From Desulfobacula sp. (GTDB taxonomy: Bacteria > Desulfobacterota > Desulfobacteria > Desulfobacterales > Desulfobacteraceae): a stretch of 64,000 nt of DNA. The number at the start of each line of letters is the position of its first letter. Position 1 is the first letter of the stretch. The stretch lies in contig JAMPXP010000001.1 of NCBI GenBank assembly GCA_023701135.1, positions 124,001 to 188,000 of the forward strand, read 5' to 3'. Below, in pieces: positions 29,789 to 61,972 of the stretch. A program made the position numbers and the translations under genes. The notes below the pieces were generated by a model. That model saw only the letters and a program-made list of their open reading frames with translations. It was not told the DNA's origin and did no database searches.

Positions 29789-29804
29789 TGGCATCATCAT
29801 TGCA
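29789..29804 (+). promoter_or_regulatory. Sigma-54 (-24/-12) promoter of the PEP-CTERM gene
   Basis: TGGCATCATCATTGCA places the -24 GG and the -12 GC exactly 10 bases apart, matching the RpoN consensus TGGCAC-N5-TTGC at all but one core position. It lies about 165 bases upstream of the PEP-CTERM ATG. Sigma-54 with the PrsK/PrsR regulators is known to control PEP-CTERM genes in other bacteria, which supports the call. Confidence 0.65.
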
Positions 29805-29967: not shown

Positions 29968-30927
29968 ATGAAAAAAGTTTTATTGATAACCATGATTTTC
30001 TTAGCAAGTTTTTATTCCCAATCCTTTGCTTATCCAAGCATACCATGGAATACAACCGGAATTAACTTTGTCACTGATGACAGCGCTGAATACAAGTTGG
30101 ATTTTATTGGAGAGCTTGATCAGGATGGCAATGTTATAAATTCTGACGATCTTGCTGATCCGACAAAATATAGATTTAATAATGACCAAACCGTTGACAA
30201 GTACGATCGATTTCGTGGTGCTTTCGAAATCGACTCAGTGAGCGATGGAAATGATCAAGCTGACTTAAAATCAAGTGCCTGGGAAATCGAATTTACTGGT
30301 ATTTTTGATATTATGGTTACAAGTAAAGTTTTTACAGGACTTACAGGAGTTGTTCCAGGTTCAGGAGATTCGGTGAATATTTATGATTTTACTTTTGGAA
30401 CAACCCCAATTTATGAAGCTTTCACAGGTATTAATGGTGCGATGCTTACGATGTATATTGATGACTATGGCGATGGTGATGATTTTGACAGAACTATCGC
30501 ATCTTCTGATCCTGAAGACGTTATGACCACTGCCTCCAATGGTGATGAGTATTGGACTTTCGGATATACTGGTGCCAATGGACTTGCAGCACTTGGAGAA
30601 GGTTGGATCACACGAGGGGCAGATCTTCTTTCCATTTTCAAAGACTTTGGAACAGGGACTGAATTCGGTGAAGTGAATTTTGCGTTGAGACTGATTGATA
30701 ACCAATTAGGACCAGAGCTTCGTGAAATCGAAAGCCCCATATTCGGTGGTACTGCTGATATTGTTGGTAGTGCAGGTTTAAAGGGTATTCAGAATCAGAC
30801 CACACCAATGCAAGTGTTTGACAATCTTGATGCACAGATTGCTCCCATCCCCGAACCCGCAACAATGCTTCTTTTCGGTCTTGGCCTCCTTGGTCTTGCC
30901 GGTGCAAGCAGAAAAAGACTCAGCTAA
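29968..30927 (+). CDS. PEP-CTERM sorting domain protein
   Basis: 319 residues. It has an N-terminal signal peptide (cut after ~SFA, residue 20), an acidic Asp/Gly-rich extracellular body without recognised domains, and a C-terminal sorting tag: IPEPATMLLFGLGLLGLAG followed by the basic tail SRKRLS. Such tags are cut by exosortases in the inner membrane and the proteins go to the cell surface or matrix. The exosortase is not in this window. The start is supported by AGGAG 6 bases upstream. The gene has its own sigma-54-type promoter and ends in a strong terminator, so it is monocistronic. Confidence 0.93.
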   Translation: MKKVLLITMIFLASFYSQSFAYPSIPWNTTGINFVTDDSAEYKLDFIGELDQDGNVINSDDLADPTKYRFNNDQTVDKYDRFRGAFEIDSVSDGNDQADLKSSAWEIEFTGIFDIMVTSKVFTGLTGVVPGSGDSVNIYDFTFGTTPIYEAFTGINGAMLTMYIDDYGDGDDFDRTIASSDPEDVMTTASNGDEYWTFGYTGANGLAALGEGWITRGADLLSIFKDFGTGTEFGEVNFALRLIDNQLGPELREIESPIFGGTADIVGSAGLKGIQNQTTPMQVFDNLDAQIAPIPEPATMLLFGLGLLGLAGASRKRLS

Positions 30928-30950
30928 TTTAGTTTTCGTATAATCAGAAT

Positions 30951-30989
30951 AAAACAGGCAGCTTTTCAAGCTGCCTGTTTTGTTTTTTT
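30951..30989 (+). terminator. Rho-independent terminator of the PEP-CTERM gene
   Basis: A 14-bp perfect stem (arms 30951-30964 and 30968-30981) with a 3-base loop, then GTTTTTTT. The left arm begins with AAAA, so it can also stop minus-strand transcription. It overlaps the last codons of the convergent reductase gene, which ends at 30966. Confidence 0.95.
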
Positions 30990-32099
30990 ATATCCCAAAT
31001 ATTTGTTCACCACGGTTTCCAGATAGTCGTCAATCCCGGGAAGCTCTATGCCCGCCTCTTTTAAACCATTCCTCGTCTGTTCGTTTCCAAACCCCTGGGT
31101 GGTTGCCAGATAATCAAAAAAAACCGGCAGAGCCTTCATGGCTCTTGCAGCAGGTTTTGAAACAAACAAGCCGATGACCGGTAAAATGGATTTAAACAAC
31201 CAGACCGGGATGGAAAGAGGCTTGGAGAGTCTTTCCCCATGGCCGATAAAAATTTTCCAGACTCGCTTTTTCAGCTCTGAAACCAGGATGGCCTCGTCCG
31301 GACCTGAACATTCATGCAGAATTTTTCCCCTGGTTTTTTCGGTTTTGCTGGACCAGGCAATCACCCCTGCCACATAATCCGACGGGATTATGTCAAGACG
31401 GGTAGCGCCTGTATCCGGGGTAATCCCCAGGGTTCTGCCGCCGGACAGGAATTCGCATAAATGATAAAAAATCTGGAAATGAATGATCTTCCCGGTTTTT
31501 GAATCCCCGACCACCATGCTGGGCCTGTGGACGGTGATGGGAAAGCCCTCATCTGCATAGGGTTTTATAAAGTCTTCAGCTTCGGCCTTGGCCTGCTCAT
31601 AGGTATTGTGAAATTCTCTTTCCGAAGTTAGCCAGGTTTCCGGCACAACTCCCTGCATCCGGCCACCGACCCCCACCGTGCTGACAAATTCTATTTTTTT
31701 CAGATGATTTTTGGCCTTGCAGATTCTGCCCAGCTCCATAATATGGCGGGCTGAGCCGACGGAACATGATCTTGCTTCTTCAAGGGGAAGATTCATCCGG
31801 ACATTACCGGCGCAATGGACAATATGGGTGCATTTTTCCGACAATTTTTGGTAAATGTCCCTGTCCATACCCAGATAAGGCTTTTTCACATCACCGGCAA
31901 CTGCTTTTATCCTGCCTCTTTTTTCATCATCTTCACGGAACCCCCAGAAATCGAATAATTTACCAAGCCGTTCCACCAGATTGCCTTTATTTTCAGCCCG
32001 GATCAGAAGAAAGAGGTCCGTGTCTTTTTCTTTCAGCAAGAGCGGCACCAGGGCTGCTCCTATGGCGCCGGTGGCGCCGGTGATAAAATAGGTGTTCAT
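30966..32099 (-). CDS. Thioester-reductase/fatty acyl reductase-like SDR enzyme
   Basis: 377 residues of the NAD-binding-4 type (C-terminal reductase of peptide synthetases and fatty acyl-CoA reductases). The NADPH loop is TGATGAIGAAL at 7-17, HIVHCAGNVRMN gives the core strand, FVSTVGVGG the catalytic Ser/Thr strand, and YEQAKAEAE the Tyr-x3-Lys pair. Such enzymes reduce an acyl thioester or activated acyl to an aldehyde or alcohol. It is the last of four minus-strand genes (exporter, PP-loop, acyl-AMP ligase, reductase; gaps 7-36 bases), so its substrate is probably the acyl product activated by the ligase next door (inference). Confidence 0.85.
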   Translation of the reverse strand: MNTYFITGATGAIGAALVPLLLKEKDTDLFLLIRAENKGNLVERLGKLFDFWGFREDDEKRGRIKAVAGDVKKPYLGMDRDIYQKLSEKCTHIVHCAGNVRMNLPLEEARSCSVGSARHIMELGRICKAKNHLKKIEFVSTVGVGGRMQGVVPETWLTSEREFHNTYEQAKAEAEDFIKPYADEGFPITVHRPSMVVGDSKTGKIIHFQIFYHLCEFLSGGRTLGITPDTGATRLDIIPSDYVAGVIAWSSKTEKTRGKILHECSGPDEAILVSELKKRVWKIFIGHGERLSKPLSIPVWLFKSILPVIGLFVSKPAARAMKALPVFFDYLATTQGFGNEQTRNGLKEAGIELPGIDDYLETVVNKYLGYKKTKQAA

Positions 32100-32126
32100 G
32101 TGATCTCCCTGCTGAATTCAAACTAT

Positions 32127-33944
32127 TTAATAAAATAAGGTGAGGTTCCCCATGGATTTGAATGGAGCCATCTTTTCAGGAACCCGGCCTTCTTCCATAT
32201 ACTGATGCATTTGCTCAATGTAAGATTCGAACCTTTTCTCGATATTTTTCCGTTTTAATTTTAAATTGGCTGTTATTTCCCTGGTCTCTACCGATAACGG
32301 GTAATCGGTTAAAAATATGCCGGCAGGCCGTTTGAAATCCGGCAAAGGTTCTATTGCAAGAAACAGATCATGGGCGATCATCTCCAGTGCAGGCCGGGCT
32401 AAAAGAGTTTTAAAATCTGCGGCGATGGAGTCTTTTTCTTCAAGCCGCTTTGCCAGACCCTGTGGAGAGACCGTCACCAGGGCGGTCAATAATTTTTTGC
32501 CCTGTCCGAAAAGGACGGCATGTTCGACATAGGATATCTGTTGCAATCTGCTTTCAATACTGACCGGTGATATTTTCCTGCCGGTGGAGGTCTTAAAGAC
32601 TTCGGATTTTCTGCCGGTAATGGATAAATACCCATCCTGATCAAAGGATGCAAAATCACCGGTGGGGAAGAATCCGTCATCGGTAAACACTTCTTTTTGA
32701 CCCTCATCGTTGTAGTAGCCGGAAAAAACGCCGGGGCCTTTGACAAGCAGCTCCCCGTCTTCACGGATTCTGGTTTGGTTTTGCGGCAAGGGTTTGCCCA
32801 CGGTTCCGAACCGGTAGTCACCGGGTATGTTCATGGCGTTGGGGATAATATTTTCACTGATGCCGTAGGCCTCCAGAACCAGAATACCCAGAGCATGGTA
32901 TTTTTCCAGCAGCCATACCGGCATGGGGGCTGATCCGCTGATTAAATATTTAAGATTGCTGCCGAGAAAGGACCTGATCTTCTTAAGAACCAGTTTATCC
33001 ATGACAAGATAAAGGATAGATTCCCAAAAACCTGATTTCGTCTTTGATCTTTGGGAGACGGCATGATGGTCACCGGCCTTAATTGCAATGCTGATCAACT
33101 TTTTTTGCCAGAATGGTTTTGCAGCGATCTGGTCCTCAATTGCCCCGTAAAGTTTTTCAAATACCCTTGGGACACCAATGAAAAGATGGGGCTGAACCTG
33201 AGGTAAAAGGTCGATCATCAACCTTGGATTTTCGATAAAATAGGTGGCCGCACCGATTTCAACGGCGCAAAAATTGATAATTCTCTGGAAAAGATTGGAC
33301 AGGGGCAGCCAGCAAGGCAGGTTGCTGTGGGCATCAATATCCGGGAACCCTTTTAATATGGCGGCGCAGGCAAGGGTCACCTGGGCATGGGTGTAAGCGA
33401 TCCCCTTGGGTTCTCCGGTTGTGCCTGATGTAAAGATAATGGTGGCCGGGTCCTCCGGGGAAACCGGCGTGGGAGCCATTGGGCCTGAACCATCCATATG
33501 ACTGAGCTGGTAACAGGTTTCATCCCCACTGCAATCCTCGATGGAGACAATATAATCCAATAGTGAAATCAGATCCGGATCGATTTTTTCCAGCATATTT
33601 ATCGTTTGAACAAAGATGCCGGAAAGCTTTGATTTTTTGACAATGTGGTTGAGATTTTCCCGTGTTTCGGAAGGGTCGATGCCGACCACAACGCCGCCGG
33701 CCATGAGAACGGCCATCTGGATATATTCCCAGGTCTGGGATGTCCCCGCCATGATGCCGATGCAATGGCCGGGTTTCAGGCCAAGGGCTCTAAAACAGGA
33801 ACTGAATTCACAAACCCGGTCAAAATACGCCTTCCATGTGGTCTTTTTCCAGTCCCCTGAAGAGGAGGCGGTGTAATGGGCAATGGAAGACGGCGTAGAT
33901 TTTACCCGTTTTTCGAGCATCTCAGGTACTGTCATTACATTCAT
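32127..33944 (-). CDS. AMP-dependent long-chain acyl synthetase/ligase
   Basis: About 605 residues of the FadD/ANL superfamily. P-loop IIFTSGTTGEPKG (~170), YGISENIIP (A5 motif), TGDFASFDQDGYL (A7) and GRKSEVFKTSTGRKISP (A8-A10 with the catalytic Lys region) are present. Size and motifs fit long-chain acyl-CoA ligases (FAA1/FadD15 group). It adenylates a carboxylate and transfers it to CoA or a carrier. The start is ATG 33944 with AGAGG 5 bases upstream; a GTG at 33950 and ATG at 33947 are nearer alternatives. It is in the same operon as a thioester reductase, which would use its product. Confidence 0.9.
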   Translation of the reverse strand: MNVMTVPEMLEKRVKSTPSSIAHYTASSSGDWKKTTWKAYFDRVCEFSSCFRALGLKPGHCIGIMAGTSQTWEYIQMAVLMAGGVVVGIDPSETRENLNHIVKKSKLSGIFVQTINMLEKIDPDLISLLDYIVSIEDCSGDETCYQLSHMDGSGPMAPTPVSPEDPATIIFTSGTTGEPKGIAYTHAQVTLACAAILKGFPDIDAHSNLPCWLPLSNLFQRIINFCAVEIGAATYFIENPRLMIDLLPQVQPHLFIGVPRVFEKLYGAIEDQIAAKPFWQKKLISIAIKAGDHHAVSQRSKTKSGFWESILYLVMDKLVLKKIRSFLGSNLKYLISGSAPMPVWLLEKYHALGILVLEAYGISENIIPNAMNIPGDYRFGTVGKPLPQNQTRIREDGELLVKGPGVFSGYYNDEGQKEVFTDDGFFPTGDFASFDQDGYLSITGRKSEVFKTSTGRKISPVSIESRLQQISYVEHAVLFGQGKKLLTALVTVSPQGLAKRLEEKDSIAADFKTLLARPALEMIAHDLFLAIEPLPDFKRPAGIFLTDYPLSVETREITANLKLKRKNIEKRFESYIEQMHQYMEEGRVPEKMAPFKSMGNLTLFY

Positions 33945-33980
33945 CATCACCTCTGACCATTAAAAGCAAAAAAAATACTA

Positions 33981-35048
33981 TTAAAAAACAGGATCATAAT
34001 ATCCCTTTGGCTTTGTGATTCTAAGATCTTTCTCTTCAAGGCCCAGCCAGTTTAAACTGTTTGTGACATCCTTTCCCAGCAATACCTTATTTTTAATCAT
34101 AAAATTCACCACCGGGGTCATGATTTTCCAGTAGGTCCGGCCTGCTTTGCCTTCCCGGATCAGGGTTGAAAATTCAGGATGATAGGGGTTATATCCAAAA
34201 TGCTTGAGATCCGAATACATCAGCAGCCAGTTGATGGGATAATTGCTGTGTATGGGGCTGGCATGTTTACCGGTTTTGACAAGACCGTTTTTGACCACGC
34301 TTTTCATAATTTCGTCCTGATTGTATTTCCAGGCATGAAAAGGGGCCAGGTACCGGGGGAATTCAGTTCCGGCCGGGTATTGCACAGGATTGAAAAACAA
34401 AGAAATCTCTTCTTCGGACAAAAGGCCGGATTGGCGGAGTCCCGGTGGTGTCCAGTCGGTTTGGCAGATTAATTTTCTGGAGAATTCATAGAGCATGCGC
34501 TCCGGTTCCGGCTGGCCAGGAGAATAGCCCGCCAATACAAGGGGAATCCCCTTTTGAAGGGCTAGTTTTATGGCATCTCCTTCAAAAAGCGGAGCATATA
34601 CATAGGATATGGTATACACTGCTCCCCGTTCCTCCTGGTTTTGCAGCAGGTATTTAAATATTTTAGCATAAAAACTATTTGAAGGGGTGTAGGAGATATG
34701 GTCAATATCAAGTTTTTTCAATGCCCGCCTGATATTATCCCAGGCAATTTCGGGAATATTGACATTGGTGGTGAAGGCAAGGACCTTAAGGCCGTATTCC
34801 TTTTTAAGCTTATAGAGCAGATAAATACTGTCTTTGCCGCCGCTTAGAGGGACCAGGCAATCATATTCACCCTGCCCTTTGCAGTCGTTCAGAGCCTTTT
34901 CAAGATCGGCCTCAAACTCTTTTCTTTTTTCCTCCTGAATATTGAAATCCATTTTTTTATAATCCCGGCAAAATCGGCAGACACCTTCTTGATTTAAGTC
35001 AGAATCCTTCACGATTTCAGGTAACAAACACAATTTGCAGCTTTTCAT
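33981..35048 (-). CDS. PP-loop ATP pyrophosphatase (N-acetyl sugar amidotransferase-like)
   Basis: 355 residues. The N-terminus has two Cys pairs (CKLC and CRFC) that likely bind zinc, followed by the PP-loop SGGKDS at ~70. This layout matches the WbpG/LegG-type N-acetyl sugar amidotransferase family and related adenylating sulfur/nitrogen transferases. Members activate a carbonyl with ATP and add ammonia (delivered by HisH/HisF-like partners) or sulfur. No HisF/HisH partner is in this window, and the neighbours are lipid enzymes, not sugar enzymes, so the substrate may be an acyl or amino-acyl group. It begins 7 bases after the RND exporter gene. Confidence 0.75.
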   Translation of the reverse strand: MKSCKLCLLPEIVKDSDLNQEGVCRFCRDYKKMDFNIQEEKRKEFEADLEKALNDCKGQGEYDCLVPLSGGKDSIYLLYKLKKEYGLKVLAFTTNVNIPEIAWDNIRRALKKLDIDHISYTPSNSFYAKIFKYLLQNQEERGAVYTISYVYAPLFEGDAIKLALQKGIPLVLAGYSPGQPEPERMLYEFSRKLICQTDWTPPGLRQSGLLSEEEISLFFNPVQYPAGTEFPRYLAPFHAWKYNQDEIMKSVVKNGLVKTGKHASPIHSNYPINWLLMYSDLKHFGYNPYHPEFSTLIREGKAGRTYWKIMTPVVNFMIKNKVLLGKDVTNSLNWLGLEEKDLRITKPKGYYDPVF

Positions 35049-35055
35049 GGCGTCC

Positions 35056-37314
35056 TCAAATTTTTTTATTTTTATAGAAAATAAGAATTGCCGACGGCAA
35101 TATCAGGGTATCGCCGATAAGGGCAGTCAACATTATAACGGCGCTCAGAAGACCGAAGTATATCGTAGGGACAAAACTGCTGAATATCATCACACCGAAC
35201 CCGATGGTCAGGATCAGGGAAGACAGGATAATGCCGCTGCCTTTGTTCTGAATCGTTTCTTTAACCGCTTTACGGACATCGGCGCCTTTGACGAAATCTT
35301 GTTTGAATTCAGTCAAAAAATGAATGGTGTCATCAACGGCAATACCAATGGCGACGGCCGCAATCAATGCCGTTGCCGTATTCAGTGGGATGTTGAATAA
35401 CCCCATGATACCGAAGTTCAGAGCAATGGGGAAAATATTGGGAAGAATACTCAAAAATCCAAGAGAAAAGGATCTGAGGACAAAAAAGAGAATCAGGAAA
35501 ATAAGGATGACGGCGCTGGTCAGGCTATTGATCTGCCCTGATACCAGGGAATCAATGGCATTGACATCCTGGACAGCCCGGCCGGAGATCCGGATATCCA
35601 TCCCTTTTGTTTCCATGGCCGAAACAAAATCACGGATCTGTTGAATGATCATGGCCTGTCCGCGGGTGGAATGCTCTGACAACCGTATGGACAGCCGCGC
35701 ATGATCAAAGGATGTGTTGACAAAATCCCGAATATCATCGGATTCATAAATCAAAAGGTATTGGGAAATGAGGGCTGAATCGGACGGGATTCTGTAGAAT
35801 TCGGGTTTCTCATTGTTGAAGGACTGGTTCATATCCTTGATAAAGTCAATAACGGAAAGGGTTTTATCTACGCCGCCCATTCCATTAATATAGTCCTGGA
35901 GGGTTTCAATCACCCCTAAGGTTTCGGGAGATTTAAAGGCATTTTCTTTTCCGGCCTTAAAGGAAATATCGATGGTTCCTACACCGGCCAGTTCTTTTTC
36001 CACAAAACCTGTAGAGACGCGCATAGGGCTTTTAAGTTTAAAATACTCCAGCAGATTGGTTTCAACAGATATTTTAAAGGACTGCCAAATCGAAAAAATG
36101 ATTATCAGGATACCGGCCACGAAGATGATCCTGAAATTCTTGAATACGAATTCTGAAAGGCCGGACAGATAGCGGCTGATTTCCCATTGCCCAGTCCCGG
36201 AGCCAATCAGTTTTTTTTCATTGAAGAAGAGCATGAAAGCGGGCAGAAAGGTAAAGGCAAAGAAATATTCAAACACCATACCCGCCGAGGCAATGAGGGC
36301 AAATTCCCTGATGGAAGGAATGTCACTTAAATACAGGGATAAAAATCCAATAGCCGTGGTCAGGGTGGTCAAAAAACAGGGTCCGGCCAGTTTTTTTAGA
36401 ACACTCTCAAAGGCCTTTTGCTTATCCTGATATTTTTCGAAAACCTGGCTGTCAAGGGCGGAAAAAATATGAACCGTATCGCAGAGGGCCAATGCTATGA
36501 TAACGGGAGGCACAATGGTGGTAATATTGTTCAGCAGGATGCCCAGGATCGGGAATAAGCCCATGGTGCAGCCCATGCAAAGGGAAATATTAGCAACGGC
36601 AATGATGGTCAGCCGGATATTCCTGAAAAAGAGAAAAACTGCCAACGCAATGAAGCCATAGGTAACGGGGATAAAGGTGGCGATATCCTTTTTCATGTAT
36701 TCAGCCAGGTCCAGATTGGTAATGGTCCATCCGGCCATATACACTTCCCCGGTATAGTCTTTATACTGCTCCAGAATGGTTTCTGCCCGGCTGATGATTT
36801 TTTTTCTGAAACCCGGATCATCCGGATGCTTCTGGACGGAAATTACAATGGCGGCCGTATTCCCGTCGGCAGAAACGAGATTTTTCAGATACAGAGGATT
36901 TCCCACGGCCTTTTTTCTCAACTCTTCCAGGGTTGCCGGATCATCGGGGATGGTTTCAAGAAATTTTTGGACAATGAAAAAATCCTCCTCACCAATGGTA
37001 TCATCCACATTGGAAAGGCTTTTGATGTTCCGGATGCCGTCGATGACGGAAAGCTCATCCGTCAATTGTTTCAGGGATTCGAGGTTGTCCTTGGTGAAAA
37101 GATTGTCTTTTTTAAAGGCAATGATAAAAAATTCGTCATTTCCGAAGATGGTTTTCAGTTCATCATAAAAGGCCACATCCGGGTCATTTTCAATAGTGAA
37201 ATAATCCACATTATCAACGGTTTTAACATCCGGCAGGCGGATAAGAAAGGGTATTGCGACCAGGATTGACAAGCACAACACAATGAATCGATGGGAGACA
37301 ATTTTTTGGATCAT
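35056..37314 (-). CDS. RND/MMPL-family exporter
   Basis: About 752 residues with the two-fold RND pattern: a membrane helix at the N-terminus, a periplasmic loop of ~180 residues, five more helices (sterol-sensing-like, GFIALAVFLFFRNIRL...), then the same again. The last block VAAVAIGIAVDDTIHFLTEF is the MMPL signature. These transporters move lipids or hydrophobic molecules using the proton gradient. The start is set at ATG 37314 because an upstream ATG (37374) is only a few bases from the likely transcription start. It is first in the lipid operon. The LolA-like and barrel proteins encoded at 39041-41385 are its expected periplasmic and outer-membrane partners (inference). Confidence 0.9.
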   Translation of the reverse strand: MIQKIVSHRFIVLCLSILVAIPFLIRLPDVKTVDNVDYFTIENDPDVAFYDELKTIFGNDEFFIIAFKKDNLFTKDNLESLKQLTDELSVIDGIRNIKSLSNVDDTIGEEDFFIVQKFLETIPDDPATLEELRKKAVGNPLYLKNLVSADGNTAAIVISVQKHPDDPGFRKKIISRAETILEQYKDYTGEVYMAGWTITNLDLAEYMKKDIATFIPVTYGFIALAVFLFFRNIRLTIIAVANISLCMGCTMGLFPILGILLNNITTIVPPVIIALALCDTVHIFSALDSQVFEKYQDKQKAFESVLKKLAGPCFLTTLTTAIGFLSLYLSDIPSIREFALIASAGMVFEYFFAFTFLPAFMLFFNEKKLIGSGTGQWEISRYLSGLSEFVFKNFRIIFVAGILIIIFSIWQSFKISVETNLLEYFKLKSPMRVSTGFVEKELAGVGTIDISFKAGKENAFKSPETLGVIETLQDYINGMGGVDKTLSVIDFIKDMNQSFNNEKPEFYRIPSDSALISQYLLIYESDDIRDFVNTSFDHARLSIRLSEHSTRGQAMIIQQIRDFVSAMETKGMDIRISGRAVQDVNAIDSLVSGQINSLTSAVILIFLILFFVLRSFSLGFLSILPNIFPIALNFGIMGLFNIPLNTATALIAAVAIGIAVDDTIHFLTEFKQDFVKGADVRKAVKETIQNKGSGIILSSLILTIGFGVMIFSSFVPTIYFGLLSAVIMLTALIGDTLILPSAILIFYKNKKI

Positions 37315-37386
37315 AGTAAAAATAAATTTGATATTTTGCTTATCAGCCTTGACAAATTTTAAAAAAAATATCATGAATCATCTATC

Positions 37387-37415
37387 TATGTAGCTAATTT
37401 GTACTGCGTAGTCAA
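37387..37415 (-). promoter_or_regulatory. Putative promoter of the lipid operon
   Basis: On the minus strand, TTGACT (37415-37410) and a weak TACATA (37392-37387) are separated by 17 bases. This gives a start near 37380 and a leader of ~65 bases to the ATG at 37314. The -10 match is only partial. Confidence 0.4.
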
Positions 37416-37436
37416 TTCAAAACAGGATCATTTTAC

Positions 37437-38186
37437 ATGATTGACAAGAGCATTCAATACGGCAATTACAGATTCGGTGTTGTAAATGATCCAGAGGTGC
37501 TCAAAGATACATTTCGGATGCGGCATGAGGTCTATGTCCAGGAATTCGGATTTGAAAAAGCCGAAGACCACCCCACCGGCCTTGAAACAGACCCCTATGA
37601 AAATGAATCCGTTCATTTTGCCTGCCTAAATGAAAACGGTTCCGTTGTTGGTACTATTCGGCTGGTGATGGACTCAGACAAGGGATTTCCCATCGAACAC
37701 GCGGTTCAGACACAATTTGTCGGTGAAAAACCGGACCGATCGAAAATCGGGGAAATATCAAGACTGACCGTCAGCAAAGACCTTCGCCGAAGAAAAGAAG
37801 ACGGAATGTATGGGGTTGAATCCTATCTCATGAAAAAAGACGGCGGCGTTCTGCCGGATGACGGCACCATCCCCGATGAAATGAAGGGAAGGAAAAATCC
37901 TATTATTGTTTTAGGTCTTTATCAGGTCATGTACCATGAAAGCCGACGCAGGGGATTGTCCCACTGGTACATGATTACGGAAAGAAAATTATTCAATGCC
38001 CTGACCAAATATGGATTTCTTTTCCACCAGATCGGAGACCCTGTTCAATATCATGGTGAAAGAATCCCATATCTGGGTATTATCGATGAAATCGAAAAAA
38101 AACTGCTGAATGACAACCCCGATATGCTGAAGATCATGCTTACGGGACTTGAAGAAGAATATCACCCACCCTATTTCAAGAATTAA
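37437..38186 (+). CDS. PEP-CTERM/exosortase-associated N-acyl amino acid synthase-like acyltransferase
   Basis: 249 residues of the GNAT-fold FeeM/N-acyl homoserine-lactone-synthase-like group annotated as PEP-CTERM/exosortase system-associated acyltransferase. The typical start FRMRHEVYVQEFGFE, the core VGTIRLVMDS and GEISRLTVSKDLRRR are present. FeeM joins a long acyl chain from acyl carrier protein to an amino acid. It reads away from the exporter operon; a weak AGGA lies 9 bases upstream of the ATG. Its last 11 bases overlap the end of a second, minus-strand member of the same superfamily. The product is probably an N-acyl amino acid signal or lipid; substrate specificity cannot be read from sequence. 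Confidence 0.85.
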   Translation: MIDKSIQYGNYRFGVVNDPEVLKDTFRMRHEVYVQEFGFEKAEDHPTGLETDPYENESVHFACLNENGSVVGTIRLVMDSDKGFPIEHAVQTQFVGEKPDRSKIGEISRLTVSKDLRRRKEDGMYGVESYLMKKDGGVLPDDGTIPDEMKGRKNPIIVLGLYQVMYHESRRRGLSHWYMITERKLFNALTKYGFLFHQIGDPVQYHGERIPYLGIIDEIEKKLLNDNPDMLKIMLTGLEEEYHPPYFKN

Positions 38187-39003
38187 ATCCATACAGGTAT
38201 TTCAGATTTTCCAACAACTTTTTTTGAATTCTGCTTGGTCCGGCCGGAAGGATAATGGAAGCGGATTCCCGTGTAAAAAAGAAATGGTACAAATTATTTC
38301 TGGATGAAACATTTTTATAAGCCTTACGGTATTTATCCTCGACTTTTCGAAGGTCCAATCTCATGGCCAGGGCCGGGTTGCCATTGGCATAGCCATAGGC
38401 TTCGATCTCCCCGATTTTTTCGAATAGCAGAAAATCCTCATAGATCCACCGGTATTTCGGATGAATCGTCATCACAATATCGTCGGCATCCAAATGCCGG
38501 GATACATACTGATGCATAATCTTATTGCCCAGCATGGGGATGGTCATATCGTTCATTTTATAGGAAGGGTCGGCGGCCAGATGACCGGCTTCAACCAGGA
38601 ACCGGCCCTGGGCCCGGAGCGTATCCAGTTCTTTCTTAAATACCATATCCATGGGAAGACTGTTTTCGGCGGAATCCGGGAATATGCTGATGGAATATAT
38701 CAGTTTTTCTTCATTGTTTTCGGTATGAAATCCGACAAAAATTCTGGACTCTGGATTGCAATGCTGGGGCGCGATCCGGAAGGGGGTGGGGCCGGGCCGG
38801 GTAAAACCAGTTTTGACAAAGACCCGGTATACCAGGTTGAATGAGGCCAGGTAATCCTGGGGGGTCAGGGCCGTTCTAAAAATAATATGGTCCAGTTCCA
38901 GTTTTAATTCGGGCAGAAAAAACCGCAAAAGCCTTAACCGGATCTTTCCGGGTAAGGCTTTATAGATTTTGCGTTTGACAAAGTTCAGGCTGATTTTTTT
39001 CAT
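38176..39003 (-). CDS. Second FeeM-like N-acyltransferase
   Basis: 275 residues. After a basic amphipathic start (~1-30) comes a GNAT-like acyltransferase domain: YLASFNLVYRVFVKTGF, KLIYSISIFPDS, RFLVEAGHLAADPSYKMND and MTIHPKYRWIYEDFLLFEKIG. The pattern (motif A replaced by E-x-G-x-L-A) is that of N-acyl amino acid synthase FeeM-related proteins. It converges on the first FeeM-like gene with an 11-base overlap and lies downstream of the barrel and LolA-like genes on the same strand. The two acyltransferases are clearly divergent in sequence, suggesting different substrates. Confidence 0.7.
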   Translation of the reverse strand: MKKISLNFVKRKIYKALPGKIRLRLLRFFLPELKLELDHIIFRTALTPQDYLASFNLVYRVFVKTGFTRPGPTPFRIAPQHCNPESRIFVGFHTENNEEKLIYSISIFPDSAENSLPMDMVFKKELDTLRAQGRFLVEAGHLAADPSYKMNDMTIPMLGNKIMHQYVSRHLDADDIVMTIHPKYRWIYEDFLLFEKIGEIEAYGYANGNPALAMRLDLRKVEDKYRKAYKNVSSRNNLYHFFFTRESASIILPAGPSRIQKKLLENLKYLYGFNS

Positions 39004-39040
39004 CCGGCCTGAGTATCACAGTTTTCAGTTTTTTGCCAGA

Positions 39041-40543
39041 TCAGAAATGGTATTTCACGTTAAAAAAAGCCTGGTCATTTTCGTCATATCGGCCCAGGAT
39101 GGTGGTATCCTTTCCCCCGAAAAGATTCAATCCCATCATTATTTCGAGATTCCGGACATAGGTGTATTTTAAGCGTGGGGAAAGATAATAGGAATCATCG
39201 TTCAGCATCCGGGTAAATTGGATGGAGGCGTTGAGCCAGTCGGAAACCAGATCCTTTTTGATTTCCCCGATGAGTGAATAATTATTGTCTTCAAAGTATA
39301 AAATGGCCGGGTCATAATCATAGATATGCTGATGGGCAAATTGCAAATTAAAATACCATTCATTTGGGCTCAGGTAATCTGCTCCAATGACCCAGAAAAG
39401 GCTGGGGTTACGCACGGAGGTCAGGGAACGGGTAAAAAAAGATTCATTGTCTTTTACGGCAGCTTCCCCGCGAAGGCCGAAATCAGCCAGGGTTGTTTCA
39501 AACTCAAACCCGGCAATATGGGTCCGGCTGTAAGTGGTTTCAATGTGCTCATTGGCCAGGCTCAGGCTACCGATATTGGACAGGAGCGATTGCGCAGATC
39601 CCGGATTGTCGAGAGACAGATTTTTGACGGGGAAGCTCCTGAAATACGGCAGGTCTTCATTGGCATAATGATAGGTGAATCCAAAATCCAGCCGGTCAAT
39701 GGTTCCGCCCACCCTCAGGGCATATTCAAAGCTGTCAAAGCCTGAATCAGGTTCTGTTTCATTGACGCTTATGGACTCAAAATAGGATTTCAAAGGGGCA
39801 GCAAGGGAAGACCGGCGGATATCGTTTTTCATATGTGAAAAAAGAGCCCAGTCGGTACCGAAATAATGAAACCGGGAGGGTTCAAAAAACGGGATCAATA
39901 CCCCTTCAACAAAAAAATCATCTTTTCGAAAGGTGATATCCGCCATCCAGACCGGGATTTTCCGGTCTTCATAGGAGGGGATGATAAATTCCGTTATGTT
40001 TTCAGGATTTAAGGTATCCACCGGGCTGACCTGATCGGTTTTCCCCCAGCGTTTGATTTGTTTTCCAAGAATGAAATCCCAAGAAGGGGCGCTGTATCTT
40101 ACATACATTTCATAGATGTCGAGGTCATAATCTTCGTTTTTGTCTTCGGCGCCGAAATACAGATAATCTGAAATTCCGGACACGGAAAATTGTTTATAAT
40201 CCGCTTTAATAAGGGTTCTGTTCTTGAAAGAAGTCAGATTTTCGCTGGAATGATTGTCCTCGGTATCAAGGGAAGCTCCGAATTCAGTGGACCCTGAAAA
40301 ATCGATTGTTGCAGCGTTTTTCTTTGAATCCGGTAGAGGTTGGGGCTTTACCTCCGAAGGGACGGTCCGTTTCGTCAGATACGTGGAAGGTTCTAAATTC
40401 ACCATTAGAATGGGCTGGATTTCGGGAGCTGTTTGTGCGGCAAGGGGGCCGCTCAACGCGGCCATGAAAAAGATCAGTTCAAAACAAATTTTGCATGTTT
40501 TTATAATTTTCTGCAATATTCCCGTCCTTATAATGCTGATCAA
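39041..40543 (-). CDS. DUF1302-like outer-membrane beta-barrel protein
   Basis: 500 residues with a signal peptide ending near AAQTA (~37) and many alternating amphipathic strands ending in the aromatic terminus FFNVKYHF (final Phe), the BAM recognition feature. GKQIKRWGKTDQVSPVDTLNP is the hallmark of the DUF1302 barrel family, whose genes often accompany RND transporters and LolA-like proteins. It probably provides the outer-membrane step of export. It follows the LolA-like gene by 56 bases on the same strand. Confidence 0.8.
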   Translation of the reverse strand: MISIIRTGILQKIIKTCKICFELIFFMAALSGPLAAQTAPEIQPILMVNLEPSTYLTKRTVPSEVKPQPLPDSKKNAATIDFSGSTEFGASLDTEDNHSSENLTSFKNRTLIKADYKQFSVSGISDYLYFGAEDKNEDYDLDIYEMYVRYSAPSWDFILGKQIKRWGKTDQVSPVDTLNPENITEFIIPSYEDRKIPVWMADITFRKDDFFVEGVLIPFFEPSRFHYFGTDWALFSHMKNDIRRSSLAAPLKSYFESISVNETEPDSGFDSFEYALRVGGTIDRLDFGFTYHYANEDLPYFRSFPVKNLSLDNPGSAQSLLSNIGSLSLANEHIETTYSRTHIAGFEFETTLADFGLRGEAAVKDNESFFTRSLTSVRNPSLFWVIGADYLSPNEWYFNLQFAHQHIYDYDPAILYFEDNNYSLIGEIKKDLVSDWLNASIQFTRMLNDDSYYLSPRLKYTYVRNLEIMMGLNLFGGKDTTILGRYDENDQAFFNVKYHF

Positions 40544-40599
40544 GATGACTTAGCAGACAGAATTTGCAACATTGATGCCAGTAGCGGCAGAATTATCGG

Positions 40600-41385
40600 T
40601 TAAAATTTTTCAAGGGCATTGTTTGAAATCTGATCAGGAGTAATATCGGTATTATATTCAATCTGTTCAAGGTTAATATGGGTTTTATGCCGGCTGGCCA
40701 CATCTTCCATCATAATTTTGGTTTCGGTCCAGATGTTCTGCCTTTGTTCAAGCCCGAGAACCCGGTATGTTTTGACATGATGGCCTTTCTTGTCATGGTA
40801 TTCAGCAAAAAGGGTCACAAAGGACTGCTTTGCAATATGGGCCGTAATGGATGAATATTGAGATTCGATCCCCTCTTTGGGCCTGGTTTCAAGGATATAA
40901 CAATCTGTCCCGTCAATTTGTTTTTCACCTTTAATCTCATACAGATAATTTTCAACCGGATGCCGTTCCATGTCTTCATAGGTAAAATCACTGTTCACAA
41001 ATTGGTGGGATTTCTGGGAAGACACGATTCTCCTGGACCGCCGCAGGGCCGGCAGATATAAAAATTGCTCGGTTTCATACCCTGGTTTTTCAATGGTCAG
41101 AAAACCGGTGCCGTTAATGTCGGCCGGTTCCGTGAACCGGATCAACTGTTTTTCCAGCCCATTCTCCAGAATACGCTTGTTTGTAAAGGTTCTGGATCTT
41201 TTGTCGCCCTTTTCATTTTCCAGGATCATGACGGCCGTGGAAATGGAATTTTTCCCCCGGTCCCTGTCAAAAACCTGCCGTGCTAAAGCCTCCCCTGTCA
41301 AAGGTTCGGTGGCCACAGCCGGAGTGGTTGCCCCAAGACATGAAACAAGTGCTGAAATTAAGAATATAAAAGCAATTTTTTTCAT
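40600..41385 (-). CDS. LolA-like outer-membrane lipoprotein-sorting protein
   Basis: About 261 residues: signal peptide (MKKIAFIFLISALVSCLG, possible lipobox VSC), then a LolA/LolB-type half-barrel (RDRGKNSISTAVMILENEKGDKR, LIRFTEPADINGTGFLTIE, FLYLPALRRSRRI). This branch (PF17131-like) is encoded beside MMPL exporters and is thought to carry hydrophobic cargo across the periplasm. The start is ATG 41385, preceded by GGGAGATAAAG; a longer frame to 41448 runs into a repeat tract. It is first in a minus-strand set with the barrel and the second FeeM-like gene. Confidence 0.85.
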   Translation of the reverse strand: MKKIAFIFLISALVSCLGATTPAVATEPLTGEALARQVFDRDRGKNSISTAVMILENEKGDKRSRTFTNKRILENGLEKQLIRFTEPADINGTGFLTIEKPGYETEQFLYLPALRRSRRIVSSQKSHQFVNSDFTYEDMERHPVENYLYEIKGEKQIDGTDCYILETRPKEGIESQYSSITAHIAKQSFVTLFAEYHDKKGHHVKTYRVLGLEQRQNIWTETKIMMEDVASRHKTHINLEQIEYNTDITPDQISNNALEKF

Positions 41386-45015: not shown

Positions 45016-45834
45016 TTATTCCAGGACCTTTTTTTTCTTCGCTGCACTGGGGCACTCCAGTTGGGGAACCTGATCATACCCCTCGTATTTCAACGATGCG
45101 CGCAACCGCTTCAATAACTCGGTACGACTGATGGTACCCAGCGTATCCCGAAGGTGTTTGCAAAGATAATAGGTAAAGGCCCCGTTATAAGTCCCTCCGA
45201 TGAAGGCATCTGCAGAAGTCTGGTTATCCTTGCACCCGGAAAAGAGTGCATGATTCGTCGGGTTTGTCGCTTTCATGATCCGTGTCAGCGGAAGATCTTC
45301 TTCCCCCATCACGCGACACAGGATATCGATGGGGGGAACCATAAACCGTGGTTTGAAGCTGTGTTCAACAGGCAGCATCGCCAGAGCAGCAGCCTCACGG
45401 GTACCGGTTCCGGAATGGCAGGCGTCCAGAAGGACCTCCAGGTGAACGCCCTTGGGCAGCGTTGTAAATATTTTATTCAAATCATCATCAACAATATAGG
45501 TCCCGTCCCAGTCCATGTCATGGGGGCAGATAATTTCATCGAGACCGTCCTTTAATTCATCACCGTCCCTGTCCCTGATCTGGGAGCCGTGGCCTGAAAA
45601 ATGGAATAAAAGACGATCTCCGGGTTTGGCGTCTTTCACCAGCCACTTCAACCGATCAAAAATCGCCTTCTTTGTAGCCCGGCCATCAGCCAGAACCCGG
45701 ATATCCTTTACACGGAATCCAAAATATTTCAGCAGAACATCCCGGATATTGGTAATGTCGTTCACACACCCCTGGAGATCTGATCCAGGCAGCTTATACT
45801 TGTTGACACCAATGAGAAGAGCTTTGTTTGCCAT
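45016..45834 (-). CDS. Caspase-like (metacaspase/orthocaspase) protease
   Basis: 272 residues, essentially one C14 peptidase domain: start MANKALLIGVNKY, catalytic His in FHFSGHGSQ (~85), catalytic Cys in LLDACHSGTG (~140), and a p10-like end with NGAFTYYLCKHL. The acidic S1 pocket residues (DGLDEIICPHD) suggest Arg/Lys specificity as in metacaspases. No signal peptide or extra domain is present. The ribosome site AAAGGAG is 7 bases upstream. Bacterial caspases can act in regulated death or defence when paired with sensors; no partner is evident here except flanking toxin-antitoxin genes and relics. Confidence 0.9.
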   Translation of the reverse strand: MANKALLIGVNKYKLPGSDLQGCVNDITNIRDVLLKYFGFRVKDIRVLADGRATKKAIFDRLKWLVKDAKPGDRLLFHFSGHGSQIRDRDGDELKDGLDEIICPHDMDWDGTYIVDDDLNKIFTTLPKGVHLEVLLDACHSGTGTREAAALAMLPVEHSFKPRFMVPPIDILCRVMGEEDLPLTRIMKATNPTNHALFSGCKDNQTSADAFIGGTYNGAFTYYLCKHLRDTLGTISRTELLKRLRASLKYEGYDQVPQLECPSAAKKKKVLE

Positions 45835-46940: not shown

Positions 46941-46950
46941 CTGGTAGTTA

Positions 46951-48744
46951 TTACAAAAAAAACCAGATACTATCATAGTCGCTTGGATCTTCTCCAATCA
47001 TTGACAACCGTTCTAAATAATCAAGAATTGAAATATCGCTGTAAAGAAATGTTTCACAACTTATTAGATTCATATCCCATGGATGAAATTCATACATTCG
47101 CTTGCCATCAGGCAAAATGGTTAATAAATCACGATGTTGTCTGGCAAGCAAATAATTTTTCCCCAGCCCTGGAATATTAAATACCGGTGCATCTGTTCTC
47201 CTTAAACCGGGGACAAGCCTTGCCTCTTCTTTCTGCTCCTGAAGAATTCTTGCCAGAGGAACACGGTAGGAATTGGTTTCTTCCTTGCCTTTAGGCATAA
47301 AGGTATAATATGGGTCAATACCGATTCGACGAAGGATTACCCGCAATAATGTGCTTTCAAACCGCCTTGATGTATAAAATGTGTATACCTGTTGGTTATA
47401 AATACTAATGCCCTGCCGTTTCAGCCTGTCAACTGCCATGACAGTATCATTCGTGATTTCATAAGGATGCTCAATATGGGTCATCACAGCTATATCGCGT
47501 TTTCCAGGTTCTCGAAATTTTCCAAGGATATCTGCTAAACGATCTGTGATTCTCATTGGTAAAGTAACTAAAACCCGGCTGCCAAAACGGATCAAATCAA
47601 TATGCTTAATATCAGAAAGACGCTTCAATAATGACTCTATTTTGCTATCAGATAAAATAAATGGATCTCCACCGGTGACAAGAACCTCTCTTATGGCAGT
47701 ATGATCTCGAATCCAGTCTATGGCCTTATTTATTTCATCCTCGCCGGCAAATGAGTGGGGCGCCATCACCTGCTCTATTTCCCAATTACGCTGGCAGTAA
47801 ACGCAAATTTGGGGACATGTCATAACCGGTTTCAGGATAACAACATTCGGATATCTTCGTGTTATAAGATCTATTGGGGATGTGTCCGACTCCAACATAA
47901 AATCAAACGAATGGTTGCTGTTTTTCCTATTTGCGGCCATATGCTGAACATAATCTTTCGGAGGAAATACTTGTGCCCGTATGGCCATATCTCTCATATT
48001 GGGTTCATTTTCCATGAGTGAAAGATAATAGGGCGTTATGCCAAATGGCAATTTTTCTTTTCTTGCAGTTTGAATAAGATCACATTGTTCCTCCTCAATA
48101 TAGGTTAAGCTTCGAACGGTATCGGCATCAGTAACCACATTTCTAATATGCCATTTCCAATTTTGCCAATCAGTTTCAGTGGCTCCAATGGTTTTAAGGA
48201 TTCTTTCTTTTTGCTTTTTCCTAAAGCGTTGTGATTCTTCTGTTAAGCCATCGGCATAAGATCCCATCTTTTTTTCCACTATCTTCCATATCTGATCCAG
48301 CTCATCCGATCGAGCCATAGCTTTTTCCCGGCCGGATATCATGGTCTTTTTCTTTTGTTCAAATAAAAAATGAAAGTCTGCCCTTCCCTCTATTCCCTTG
48401 ATCCAGTTTATCATCTCAGCATAAAAGCCAGGTTTTAAATCTTCTCTTGCTTTTCCTCTTGTTATATCCCATATGGCCTTTACTGCATTGAAGCCACTGA
48501 TTGCTTCTGATCTTTCAGAAAAAACATTATGCAAAATAAGGCTGCAATCCCTTTTTCGAATCAATTCCTGAGCGGCAGGATACTCGCCTCTGGATGGAGA
48601 ACGAAATAACCTGGCGATTCTTCGCAGCAATGTCTCTCGAACGGACTTTATGTTACGACAATTTTCAATCCCCTCAAAGAGGGTTTGCCCTTCCTTTTTA
48701 AAAGCCTCTACATTATATAATTTTTCATACAACCATTTTGACAT
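46951..48744 (-). CDS. KamA-family radical SAM protein (lysine 2,3-aminomutase-like)
   Basis: 597 residues. The first ~280 residues are a helical extension not found in ordinary 410-470-residue aminomutases. The radical SAM core then carries the 4Fe-4S motif C310-x3-C314-x2-C317 (TCPQICVYCQRN), VLVTGGDPF, and the PLP-lysine region with Lys529 (NIPGLGKN), so both cofactors are likely bound. Family members move an amino group between C2 and C3 of an amino acid. Here the gene is last in the exopolysaccharide operon, 17 bases after an O-antigen polymerase-like gene. It could provide an unusual beta-amino acid for polymer decoration, possibly with the ATP-grasp ligase (inference). Confidence 0.85.
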   Translation of the reverse strand: MSKWLYEKLYNVEAFKKEGQTLFEGIENCRNIKSVRETLLRRIARLFRSPSRGEYPAAQELIRKRDCSLILHNVFSERSEAISGFNAVKAIWDITRGKAREDLKPGFYAEMINWIKGIEGRADFHFLFEQKKKTMISGREKAMARSDELDQIWKIVEKKMGSYADGLTEESQRFRKKQKERILKTIGATETDWQNWKWHIRNVVTDADTVRSLTYIEEEQCDLIQTARKEKLPFGITPYYLSLMENEPNMRDMAIRAQVFPPKDYVQHMAANRKNSNHSFDFMLESDTSPIDLITRRYPNVVILKPVMTCPQICVYCQRNWEIEQVMAPHSFAGEDEINKAIDWIRDHTAIREVLVTGGDPFILSDSKIESLLKRLSDIKHIDLIRFGSRVLVTLPMRITDRLADILGKFREPGKRDIAVMTHIEHPYEITNDTVMAVDRLKRQGISIYNQQVYTFYTSRRFESTLLRVILRRIGIDPYYTFMPKGKEETNSYRVPLARILQEQKEEARLVPGLRRTDAPVFNIPGLGKNYLLARQHRDLLTILPDGKRMYEFHPWDMNLISCETFLYSDISILDYLERLSMIGEDPSDYDSIWFFL

Positions 48745-48761
48745 TTTTAGCCCCTTATATG

Positions 48762-51068: not shown

Positions 51069-52086
51069 TATCAAAGTGTTGGTTATCAATCATTTCTTTC
51101 ATCCGAAAGAAGCAATATTCTGCCAACATCTCATGACCGCCATCAAAAATGGTTATGGAAATATTGGCAGCTTCTTTACGATATAGCACATCACGGCCAT
51201 CTATTTTATTAGACACATTTTCCAAGGGAATCCCTCTTGATAAAAGGTCATTCATGTCCTTTTGGTTTATTAAATTATTTTGGGTTTCATAAAAACTGAC
51301 CATTCTGTTAAAAAACAGAATGGAATGGGTTATCGGTACACTGCCGGTATAACCGTCATTGATTCCATGGTAAATTTCAAGCCTGCTTTTTTGTTTTTCC
51401 GGTAATTCATAGTAAAGCGGGGATCTTTCCAACGCACTTTTTTTATCATAGCTTGCACCCGTTGAAATGCATCTTAAAATATCATCATGAAACCTGGCTT
51501 TTCTAAATTTTGATTGCCAATACCATGCATCAAGATCACTGATGGGCGACCATGCCAGGAATGCACGGATTTTATGCCGTGTTTTTAAAAAAACACCCAA
51601 GCTTGCATACCCTCCGCCTGAAACACCAGTGACGAAAATATGATCTTTGTTAACACTGCAGTGATCTAAAGCATATTGAATGGCGTCGTCGATATCGGCA
51701 ATCGCTTTATTGCTCAAACATCCATCCGGGCTTTGATTGAGTCCCCTGAAATCCGGATGAATATAATTCCACTCATTGGCTTTTGCCATTTGGGACAATG
51801 GATCATTTTGTCGATAATCTCCAGACCAGGTGTGAAGGCTGATGAGCAAGGGTTTTTTTTCTGAAGATTTGGAATCATAAAAATAGGCATGCTGAATAGT
51901 GTTATCGATCGTACTTCTGATTTCGACAATTGAAAAATCCTTGGGCCATGCAGTTTTTCGGGTGTCGGAAAAATATTGAAAATAATCAATAAATTTTGAT
52001 TGCAGAACTGGAAAAAAAACAATGGATAAAAGAGCACCCAATAAAAAAGAAGAAGCTACTGCAAAAAAAATATGACTATTTTTCAT
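51049..52086 (-). CDS. Alpha/beta hydrolase (prolyl oligopeptidase/esterase type), secreted or anchored
   Basis: 345 residues with an N-terminal signal-anchor (~6-26). The alpha/beta fold has LLISLHTWSGDYRQNDP (oxyanion strand), nucleophile in GVSGGGYAS (~160), Asp in GINDGYTG and His in DGGHEM near the end: a complete triad. It is likely a periplasmic esterase or deacylase acting on the polymer, as it sits inside the polysaccharide operon. It is not an exact match to a characterised member. Confidence 0.8.
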   Translation of the reverse strand: MKNSHIFFAVASSFLLGALLSIVFFPVLQSKFIDYFQYFSDTRKTAWPKDFSIVEIRSTIDNTIQHAYFYDSKSSEKKPLLISLHTWSGDYRQNDPLSQMAKANEWNYIHPDFRGLNQSPDGCLSNKAIADIDDAIQYALDHCSVNKDHIFVTGVSGGGYASLGVFLKTRHKIRAFLAWSPISDLDAWYWQSKFRKARFHDDILRCISTGASYDKKSALERSPLYYELPEKQKSRLEIYHGINDGYTGSVPITHSILFFNRMVSFYETQNNLINQKDMNDLLSRGIPLENVSNKIDGRDVLYRKEAANISITIFDGGHEMLAEYCFFRMKEMIDNQHFDNGDAFE

Positions 52087-52125
52087 AAATTCCGTTGTCC
52101 TTTAATGCTGATTCCAACCATGCTT

Positions 52126-55140: not shown

Positions 55141-55173
55141 AGATTGGTTATTCCATTACAGGAGTATGTCTCA

Positions 55174-57245: not shown

Positions 57246-57260
57246 TTTTTTTCAAACCTT

Positions 57261-58304: not shown

Positions 58305-58308
58305 TTCA

Positions 58309-59607: not shown

Positions 59608-59608
59608 T

Positions 59609-61965: not shown

Positions 61966-61972
61966 ATCCGCA

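Follow-up and report, generated by a model that had tools for sequence, protein, structure and literature searches.

A PP-loop ATPase, acyl ligase and reductase as a candidate tailoring module for N-acyl amino acid lipids in an exosortase-linked locus of Desulfobacula

Judging from the accessible parts of the literature, N-acyl amino acids made by FeeM-like synthases are cyclised and desaturated to acyl-oxazolones by OxzB, TrzS and TyzB/TyzC (PMC10404671; PMC12856293; PMC12479983), and the tyz genes adjoin the transporter gene mmpL9 (PMC10404671). The word "exosortase" does not occur in the main texts of these three papers as far as they are accessible, nor does "PEP-CTERM" in two of them. Here we describe a gene cluster of Desulfobacula sp. 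in a 64,000-nucleotide stretch of contig JAMPXP010000001.1 (assembly GCA_023701135.1, genome of 4.8 Mb), a stretch we refer to as the window. The cluster holds two acyltransferase genes (FEE1 and FEE2), exporter genes, a gene for a PEP-CTERM surface protein and three adjacent enzyme genes, which we call the triad: a PP-loop ATPase (PPL), an acyl-activating ligase (LIG) and a thioester-reductase-like enzyme (RED). We put the probability that the locus belongs to the class of exosortase-linked pathways for tailoring and exporting N-acyl amino acid lipids at roughly 0.6, and our best reading of the triad is that of an alternative tailoring module for such lipids, with some close relatives using another module at the same spot.

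Like the acyl-oxazolone pathways OxzAB, TyzABC and TrzAS, the cluster would combine a FeeM-like synthase (in the window by family only) with carboxyl adenylation and a redox enzyme, and, as at tyz, an MmpL transporter gene is adjacent. Unlike them, it has a ligase, a reductase and a PP-loop enzyme in place of a ThiF cyclase and a flavin oxidase. PPL shares its tetracysteine motif, its SGGKDS motif and its fold with the sugar amidotransferases WbuX, WbpG and LpNASAT, as these are described in the accessible parts of PMC10607449, but it falls under the family cut-off, has no HisH/HisF partner in sight and is fixed to LIG and RED. These two follow the adenylation plus NAD(P)H-reductase logic of carboxylic acid reductases and of MxaA-type nonribosomal peptide synthetase thioester reductases, although, unlike carboxylic acid reductases, they are separate proteins rather than a single chain and neither has a carrier-protein domain match in Pfam. 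FEE1 belongs to TIGR03694, the exosortase-associated acyltransferase family.

The first-pass annotation had described eight genes, seven of them in two compact minus-strand sets that flank a plus-strand FeeM-like gene. This arrangement is exact: all eight open reading frames (ORFs) are present and open, with gaps of 7-56 nt inside the two sets. Reading the minus strand from the right, LOLA (40600..41385; LolA_like periplasmic carrier, PF17131 184.2 bits) is followed by a DUF1302-related outer-membrane beta-barrel (39041..40543) and by FEE2 (38176..39003), a FeeM-type N-acyl amino acid synthase by family (PF21926 FeeM 112.5 bits over the whole domain, cut-off 27; 2g0b FeeM, E 1.7e-5) that would make N-acyl amino acids. 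FEE1 then lies on the plus strand (37437..38186; PEP-CTERM/exosortase system-associated acyltransferase, TIGR03694 177.1 bits, cut-off 111.95), its 3' end overlapping that of FEE2 by 11 bases, and the minus strand continues with MMPL (35056..37314; MMPL/HAE3-type RND exporter, PF03176 122.6 bits), PPL (33981..35048), LIG (32127..33950; ANL superfamily, PF00501 208.1 bits) and RED (30966..32099; NAD_binding_4, PF07993 169.5 bits), these four being separated by 7, 30 and 27 nt. Slightly longer starts are possible for MMPL (37374) and LOLA (41448). FEE1 and FEE2 had been taken together as two FeeM-like synthases; they belong to two different families. A ninth gene had been missed: that of a PEP-CTERM surface protein of 319 residues (29968..30927, plus strand; C-terminus IPEPATMLLFGLGLLGLAGASRKRLS; PF07589 32.1 bits, cut-off 20.7; TIGR02595 24 bits, cut-off 16), which faces RED across a bidirectional terminator-like hairpin (30946..30986, both strands; stems of 19 pairs on the plus and 14 on the minus strand, by consensus match only) common to both genes.

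In a set of 58 genomes, made up of the window's own (G000) and 57 relatives, TIGR03694 occurs in 14, and the neighbourhood of the gene was read in each of these within the limits of the contig. Four of them hold the triad (G000, G013, G034, G054) and seven a ThiF-nitroreductase protein of about 680 residues (G002, G005, G008, G013, G014, G018, G047), while the others have an FAD_binding_4 oxidase (G009, G033), a lone ThiF (G016) or no module (G032). The ThiF-nitroreductase was confirmed with Pfam in the five genomes tested (G002, G008, G014, G018, G047); that of G005 is assigned by 55% identity and that of G013 by three separate ORF pieces. In six of the seven (not G047) the gene adjoins MMPL, starting between 11 nt before and 11 nt after the MMPL stop, and PPL in the window, which starts 7 nt after the MMPL stop, sits in the same slot. 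A convergent PEP-CTERM gene follows the ThiF-nitroreductase gene in those same six, with a radical SAM gene intervening in one (L100). The window genome has no match to the ThiF-nitroreductase at E <= 1e-40, and none of the nine cluster genes has a ThiF or flavin oxidase domain. Across the 58 genomes, carriage of either the triad or the ThiF-nitroreductase goes with TIGR03694 (10/12 vs 4/46, Fisher p 1e-6, uncorrected for kinship).

The exchange is seen at one chromosomal site, 5' of prfC. This gene was located in 22 of the 26 genomes of the genus and its flank examined in 16 (the window, L123 and 14 of the 17 fetched stretches), the survey leaving out three stretches under 2.7 kb and three genomes with prfC less than 1.3 kb from the contig start. 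A cluster lies 0.9-8.5 kb 5' of prfC in 5/16 genomes. It contains the triad in G000, the ThiF-nitroreductase between MMPL and the PEP-CTERM gene in G002, G005 and G014 (the FEE1/FEE2 part of G005 being on another small contig), and in G009 an FAD oxidase that adjoins MMPL and is separated by about 4.5 kb from the PEP-CTERM gene. No cluster was seen 5' of prfC in the other 11, four of them represented by stretches under 5 kb. Nine genomes of the genus have TIGR03694: five have their cluster at prfC, one has it elsewhere and three (G013, G016, G018) cannot be judged.

FEE2 matches the N-terminal part of NF011425, the rest of which corresponds to the ThiF-nitroreductase, and in G029 (L124) FeeM, ThiF and nitroreductase are fused in one protein. 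Because of these two links and the relatedness of the ThiF-nitroreductase to the oxazolone enzymes, the substrate of this module is very probably a FeeM-type product, and by analogy the triad, whose slot it occupies, likely works on a substrate of the same kind. The locus offers a compact enzyme set together with a natural swap experiment, in which one chromosomal site with a common exporter and PEP-CTERM gene carries three alternative tailoring modules, one of them resembling enzymes of known chemistry. We would predict that in the relatives the exosortase setting includes oxazolone-type lipids, which are replaced here by N-acyl amino acid lipids of a new class, reduced and carrying nitrogen or sulfur.

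In all, the triad is found at 13 distinct loci, which belong to Desulfobacterota and to several lineages of Pseudomonadota, with carriers including Desulfospira joergensenii DSM 10085 and Nitrosomonas eutropha Nm24. Among the 58 genomes, five match PPL at 72-100% identity and the other matches are at <=40%, except for a short piece of the G013 gene at 74%; a PPL profile run across 395 genomes of the phylum returned two orthologs and three weaker paralogs, and a scan of GTDB contigs with two short peptide patterns gave eleven PPL loci. After merging of duplicates (G013 = L062, G034 = L071, G049 = L063) the 13 are the window, L062, L071/L039, L040 (G054), L063, L064, L065, L066, L067, L068, L069, L070 and L072; the PPL of L062, from a Desulfobacula metagenome-assembled genome, is 98% identical to that of the window. 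The PPL tree is partly resolved, with 3/9 inner branches well supported. The arrangement is more than a chance grouping, as it recurs in other genomes, and its genes tend to stay together rather than scatter: PPL has LIG as its neighbour in 13/13 loci, and RED comes next in all 12 that are uncut by a contig end. Of the exporter genes, MMPL is found near the triad at 5/13 loci and LolA_like and DUF1302 at 6/13 each. Since these export genes recur and MacB/FtsX permeases stand near the triad in L063, L067 and L068, different pumps may serve the same outer-membrane end.

A TIGR03694 or FeeM neighbour occurs at 7/13 triad loci, and no acyl-amino-acid synthase was seen in the examined flanks of the other 6/13. 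The latter count would suit an alternative that we consider unlikely, namely that LIG and RED form a split acid reductase making fatty aldehydes or alcohols for wax, ether or hydrocarbon lipids, with PPL modifying the product and no N-acyl amino acids involved. The NAD_binding_4 family includes fatty acyl reductases, and the best NCBIfam match of LIG is the fatty acid ligase FadD11 (NF038343, 228.9 bits, cut-off 950). Such a route is, however, hard to square with the retention of PPL at all 13 loci as the most conserved of the three enzymes (mean pairwise identity among 12 sequences: PPL 63.5%, RED 45.7%, LIG 38.7%), with the synthase neighbours at seven loci, or with the ThiF-nitroreductase in the same slot in relatives. 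Motifs of LIG and RED are conserved in the same 12 sequences: SGTTGxxK is invariant in LIG, and T7-G8-x-T10-G11-x-x-G14 and Y167-xxx-K171 are invariant in RED, the closest PDB entry of which is the MxaA thioester reductase domain (4u7w, E 1.3e-25). LIG has no PDB match at E <= 1e-30. Its identity as the exosortase A ligase TIGR03098 was ruled out (107.4 bits, cut-off 592.35); a separate gene resembling the exosortase A ligase, L073:4351-5952, which belongs to the exopolysaccharide-type locus described below, scores 581.7 bits, just under that cut-off.

PPL has no Pfam match and groups as a sister to the N-acetyl sugar amidotransferases. It scores 118.2 bits against TIGR03573 WbuX, below the cut-off of 203.2, though its CxxC...GxCxxC and SGGxDS motifs and its fold fit that family; SGGKDS and four cysteines (C4, C7, C24, C27) are invariant in 12/12 sequences. 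Among solved structures PPL comes nearest to 8wex, the Legionella N-acetyl sugar amidotransferase (E 2.4e-12), which is the top fold match of the predicted model (pLDDT 88.8, TMq 0.63), followed much more weakly by the thiolases NcsA and TtuA and by ammonia-dependent NAD synthetases. A HisH/HisF-like partner was found at 0/13 triad loci and at 10/26 loci of PPL paralogs, a count made after dropping L031 (a fragment of the G013 triad gene). The query genes themselves came from L033, one of the ten positives; PF00977 supports the HisF query, while the HisH query was identified by position and sequence only. The partner is missing within 1.5 kb at 16/26 paralog loci, among them the five best-scoring paralogs (L014-L018), so the expectation that its absence would be a hallmark of the triad failed. 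With no HisH/HisF-like neighbour at any of the 13 loci, we infer that PPL uses free ammonia, sulfide or another donor.

These affinities bear on a second alternative, in which PPL is a true sugar amidotransferase and the locus serves to decorate a glycan of the exosortase system, on exopolysaccharide or protein, for which LIG and RED supply an acyl or aldehyde group. Besides the Legionella relative, it could draw on an exosortase-type exopolysaccharide locus that begins about 5.5 kb right of the cluster and on three PPL-like paralogs lying 3-15 kb from an exosortase gene (G051:C25:317545, with 26% identity, and G199:C1:1158406 and G106:C1:372721, each scoring about 152 bits against the PPL profile), all of them lacking HisH/HisF within 1.5 kb. 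We nonetheless think it quite unlikely: Pfam and NCBIfam profile searches found no glycosyltransferase or sugar-nucleotide enzyme among the nine cluster genes, PPL lies under the WbuX cut-off, and the partner genes are missing from all triad loci while ten paralog loci have them (though 16 do not).

The first-pass annotation had read the genes as a lipid pathway, and the family content does fit synthases, carboxyl activation, reduction and export of a hydrophobic product; what does not hold is the picture of a free-standing system, given the exosortase setting. The window genome has two exosortase genes (PF09721), one of them on the cluster's contig about 41 kb beyond it, and 18 PEP-CTERM matches at E <= 1, of which 14 exceed the PF07589 cut-off. 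The contig exosortase sits in the farther part of the exopolysaccharide-type locus, which starts near window position 46,950 and was annotated in part. Exosortase-system genes lie in the examined flanks of 10/13 triad loci: TIGR03694 in the window, L062, L039, L040 and L065; PrsT over the cut-off in L064, L065, L070 and L072, with partial best matches under it in L039 and L040; PrsK and PrsR in L066; and PEP-CTERM proteins over the family cut-off in the window, L040, L068 and L072, and by C-terminal sequence plus sub-cut-off matches in L039 and L064. Strict co-occurrence of triad and exosortase had been expected and was not observed: 10/13 triad genomes have an exosortase, against 139/395 across the phylum, an approximate base rate given that only part of the 13 are Desulfobacterota, and 29/58 in the set of relatives. 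Going by this association, the product of the locus may be used by the exosortase.

Several points weigh against our reading of the triad as a tailoring module in an exosortase-linked pathway. Its substrate, product and chemistry are predictions, and so is the product of the relatives' ThiF-nitroreductases, because the two proteins scored fall below the cut-offs of both PRK14851 (780 and 1072 vs 1170 bits) and the TrzS family NF005901 (260 and 298 vs 476 bits). LIG resembles long-chain fatty acyl ligases and could take a plain fatty acid as its substrate. The G008 cluster is not at the prfC site, and G013, a metagenome-assembled genome with 6% contamination that was counted under both modules, holds both on different contigs, so that the two are not strictly exclusive. 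No exosortase-system gene was seen in the examined flanks of 3/13 triad loci (L063, L067, L069), no exosortase was found in 3/13 triad genomes (L063, L066, L069), and the triad and exosortase alone are not significantly associated in the 58 genomes (4/5 vs 25/53, p 0.18). The relatives are probably anaerobes. The desaturation by TyzC and TrzS, by contrast, uses O2, according to the accessible parts of PMC10404671 and PMC12856293.

A diffusible signal or antibiotic, co-regulated with surface proteins by chance, would be a different kind of product, and we think it very unlikely. FEE1 is distantly like N-acyl homoserine lactone (AHL) synthases, matching PF00765 Autoind_synth (27.1 bits, cut-off 24) and AHL synthases in the PDB (E 2e-4 to 3e-4), and some N-acyl tyrosines inhibit bacterial growth, as reported in the accessible part of PMC12479983. 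Against a released product stand the three-part envelope exporter with its outer-membrane barrel, the PEP-CTERM gene with the sigma-54-type sites described below, and the finding that none of the nine cluster genes encodes a signal-receptor-like protein in Pfam and NCBIfam profile searches. The barrel itself had no match of its own in hidden Markov model searches and is assigned through its relatives L039, L063 and L072, which match PF06980 DUF1302, and through a model nearest to the AlgE (TMq ~0.46) and OmpF (TMq ~0.38) barrels; with a pLDDT of 66 and 142 residues below 50, this model supports "barrel-like" only.

Sigma-54-type -24/-12 sites are placed as if the exporter and the surface protein were expressed together. 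One (TGGCATCATCATTGCA, 29789..29804, plus strand) lies 163 nt before the PEP-CTERM gene, and its 16-mer is identical before PEP-CTERM genes in L098, L100, L104 and L123; another (TGGCATCAATGTTGCA, 40565..40580, minus strand) lies directly before the DUF1302-like gene, and in L039 and L105 a site of this kind precedes the DUF1302 gene by 34-36 nt. The strict pattern TGGCAY-N5-TTGCW occurs 16 times in 18 loci (328,701 bases) against a Markov mean of 0.79 and a maximum of 3 in 200 simulations, these loci having been chosen for holding the triad or a related cluster, many with PEP-CTERM genes. Nine loci, the window among them, have a strict site before a PEP-CTERM gene, three (the window, L039 and L105) have one before the DUF1302 gene, and L063 has one before a FeeM gene; 3/16 have no ATG-started gene of >=150 residues within 350 nt, and 7/18 loci have no strict site. 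A looser scan allowing two mismatches showed no enrichment in the window (16 sites vs 29 expected), and therefore the strict pattern alone carries information. Haft et al. (2006; PMC1569441, accessible in part) had already reported a sigma-54 motif upstream of PEP-CTERM genes; the site before the barrel gene, which does not appear in the accessible part of that paper, may be taken as an extra sign of joint expression of exporter and surface protein.

If the tailoring reading is correct, the pathway might run as follows. FEE1 and/or FEE2 would acylate an amino acid, and LIG would adenylate its free carboxyl, the step performed by the ThiF domain in the oxazolone pathway. RED could then reduce the activated acid to an aldehyde or alcohol, while PPL, as its relatives among the N-acetyl sugar amidotransferases presumably do, would spend ATP to place nitrogen (or sulfur) on the amide carbonyl, turning the amide into an amidine. 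By ordinary organic chemistry, an alpha-acylamino aldehyde taking up one ammonia could close to a 2-alkyl-4-substituted imidazole, or with sulfur to a thiazole, and the imidazole would parallel the oxazolone ring that relatives of the replacing module produce. MMPL, the LolA-like protein and the barrel would carry the lipid to the outer membrane. The 2-alkyl imidazole is the most economical guess that uses all three enzymes, though we consider it rather unlikely. A further reading, which we think quite unlikely, is that the triad makes an N-acyl amino acid lipid with a heterocycle (imidazole- or thiazole-type) or an amine, and that this lipid is the membrane acceptor to which the exosortase joins PEP-CTERM proteins or keeps them at the outer membrane. 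Were this so, the interchangeable modules (triad, ThiF-nitroreductase and FAD oxidase) would define lineage-specific anchor lipids.

The first-pass annotation did not recognise the combination of families. The new part is the PPL-LIG-RED triad and its replacement by the ThiF-nitroreductase in relatives, no description of either having been found in the open-licence literature, as far as accessible and among the matches listed. A link between N-acyl amino acid synthases and exosortases is reportedly in print already, going by the title of a 2011 paper by Craig et al. that we know from reference lists. To our knowledge, the exosortase attachment target for PEP-CTERM proteins and the reason why N-acyl amino acid synthases accompany exosortases are open questions.

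Some observations on neighbouring genes may be added. FAD_binding_4 oxidases beside triad or TIGR03694 loci (L064:4157-5899, L065:12396-14090, L101:5569-7185, L099:10559-12193) recur and perhaps tailor these lipids as a third kind of enzyme, and methyltransferases beside triad loci of Rhodocyclaceae and Nitrosomonas (L067:594-1784, L067:5620-6462, L068:3690-4565) suggest further tailoring. A FeeM domain is fused to a cyclic-nucleotide-binding domain at L063:3891-5147 and L072:4202-5407, adjoining triad loci that also hold a FEE2-like gene. The radical SAM gene by the ThiF-nitroreductase module and PEP-CTERM gene in L100 (7280-8797) encodes a B12-binding protein by Pfam, and an ORF in the same surroundings at L122:4883-6409 resembles it by its first residues only. 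The exopolysaccharide locus (window 46951-62004, running past G000:C10:207259) holds TIGR03088- and TIGR03097-like genes, both under the cut-off (the TIGR03088 glycosyltransferase near it, at 396.9 vs 409.05 bits), a KamA-family radical SAM protein of 597 residues, a C5-epimerase-domain protein, several proteins without family match and the exosortase. Between this locus and the cluster lies a caspase-like peptidase C14 gene (window 45016-45834, minus strand; PF00656 123.3 bits). An Rfam scan returned one tRNA only, and a sigma-70 promoter scan was uninformative (25 found vs 22.9 expected). A bufferin maturase of the MNIO family (L069:6708-8381; 366.7 bits, cut-off 310) lies near the alphaproteobacterial triad. 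Lastly, the GC content is 0.43-0.47 across the cluster and 0.36-0.37 in the 2 kb blocks that flank it left and right.

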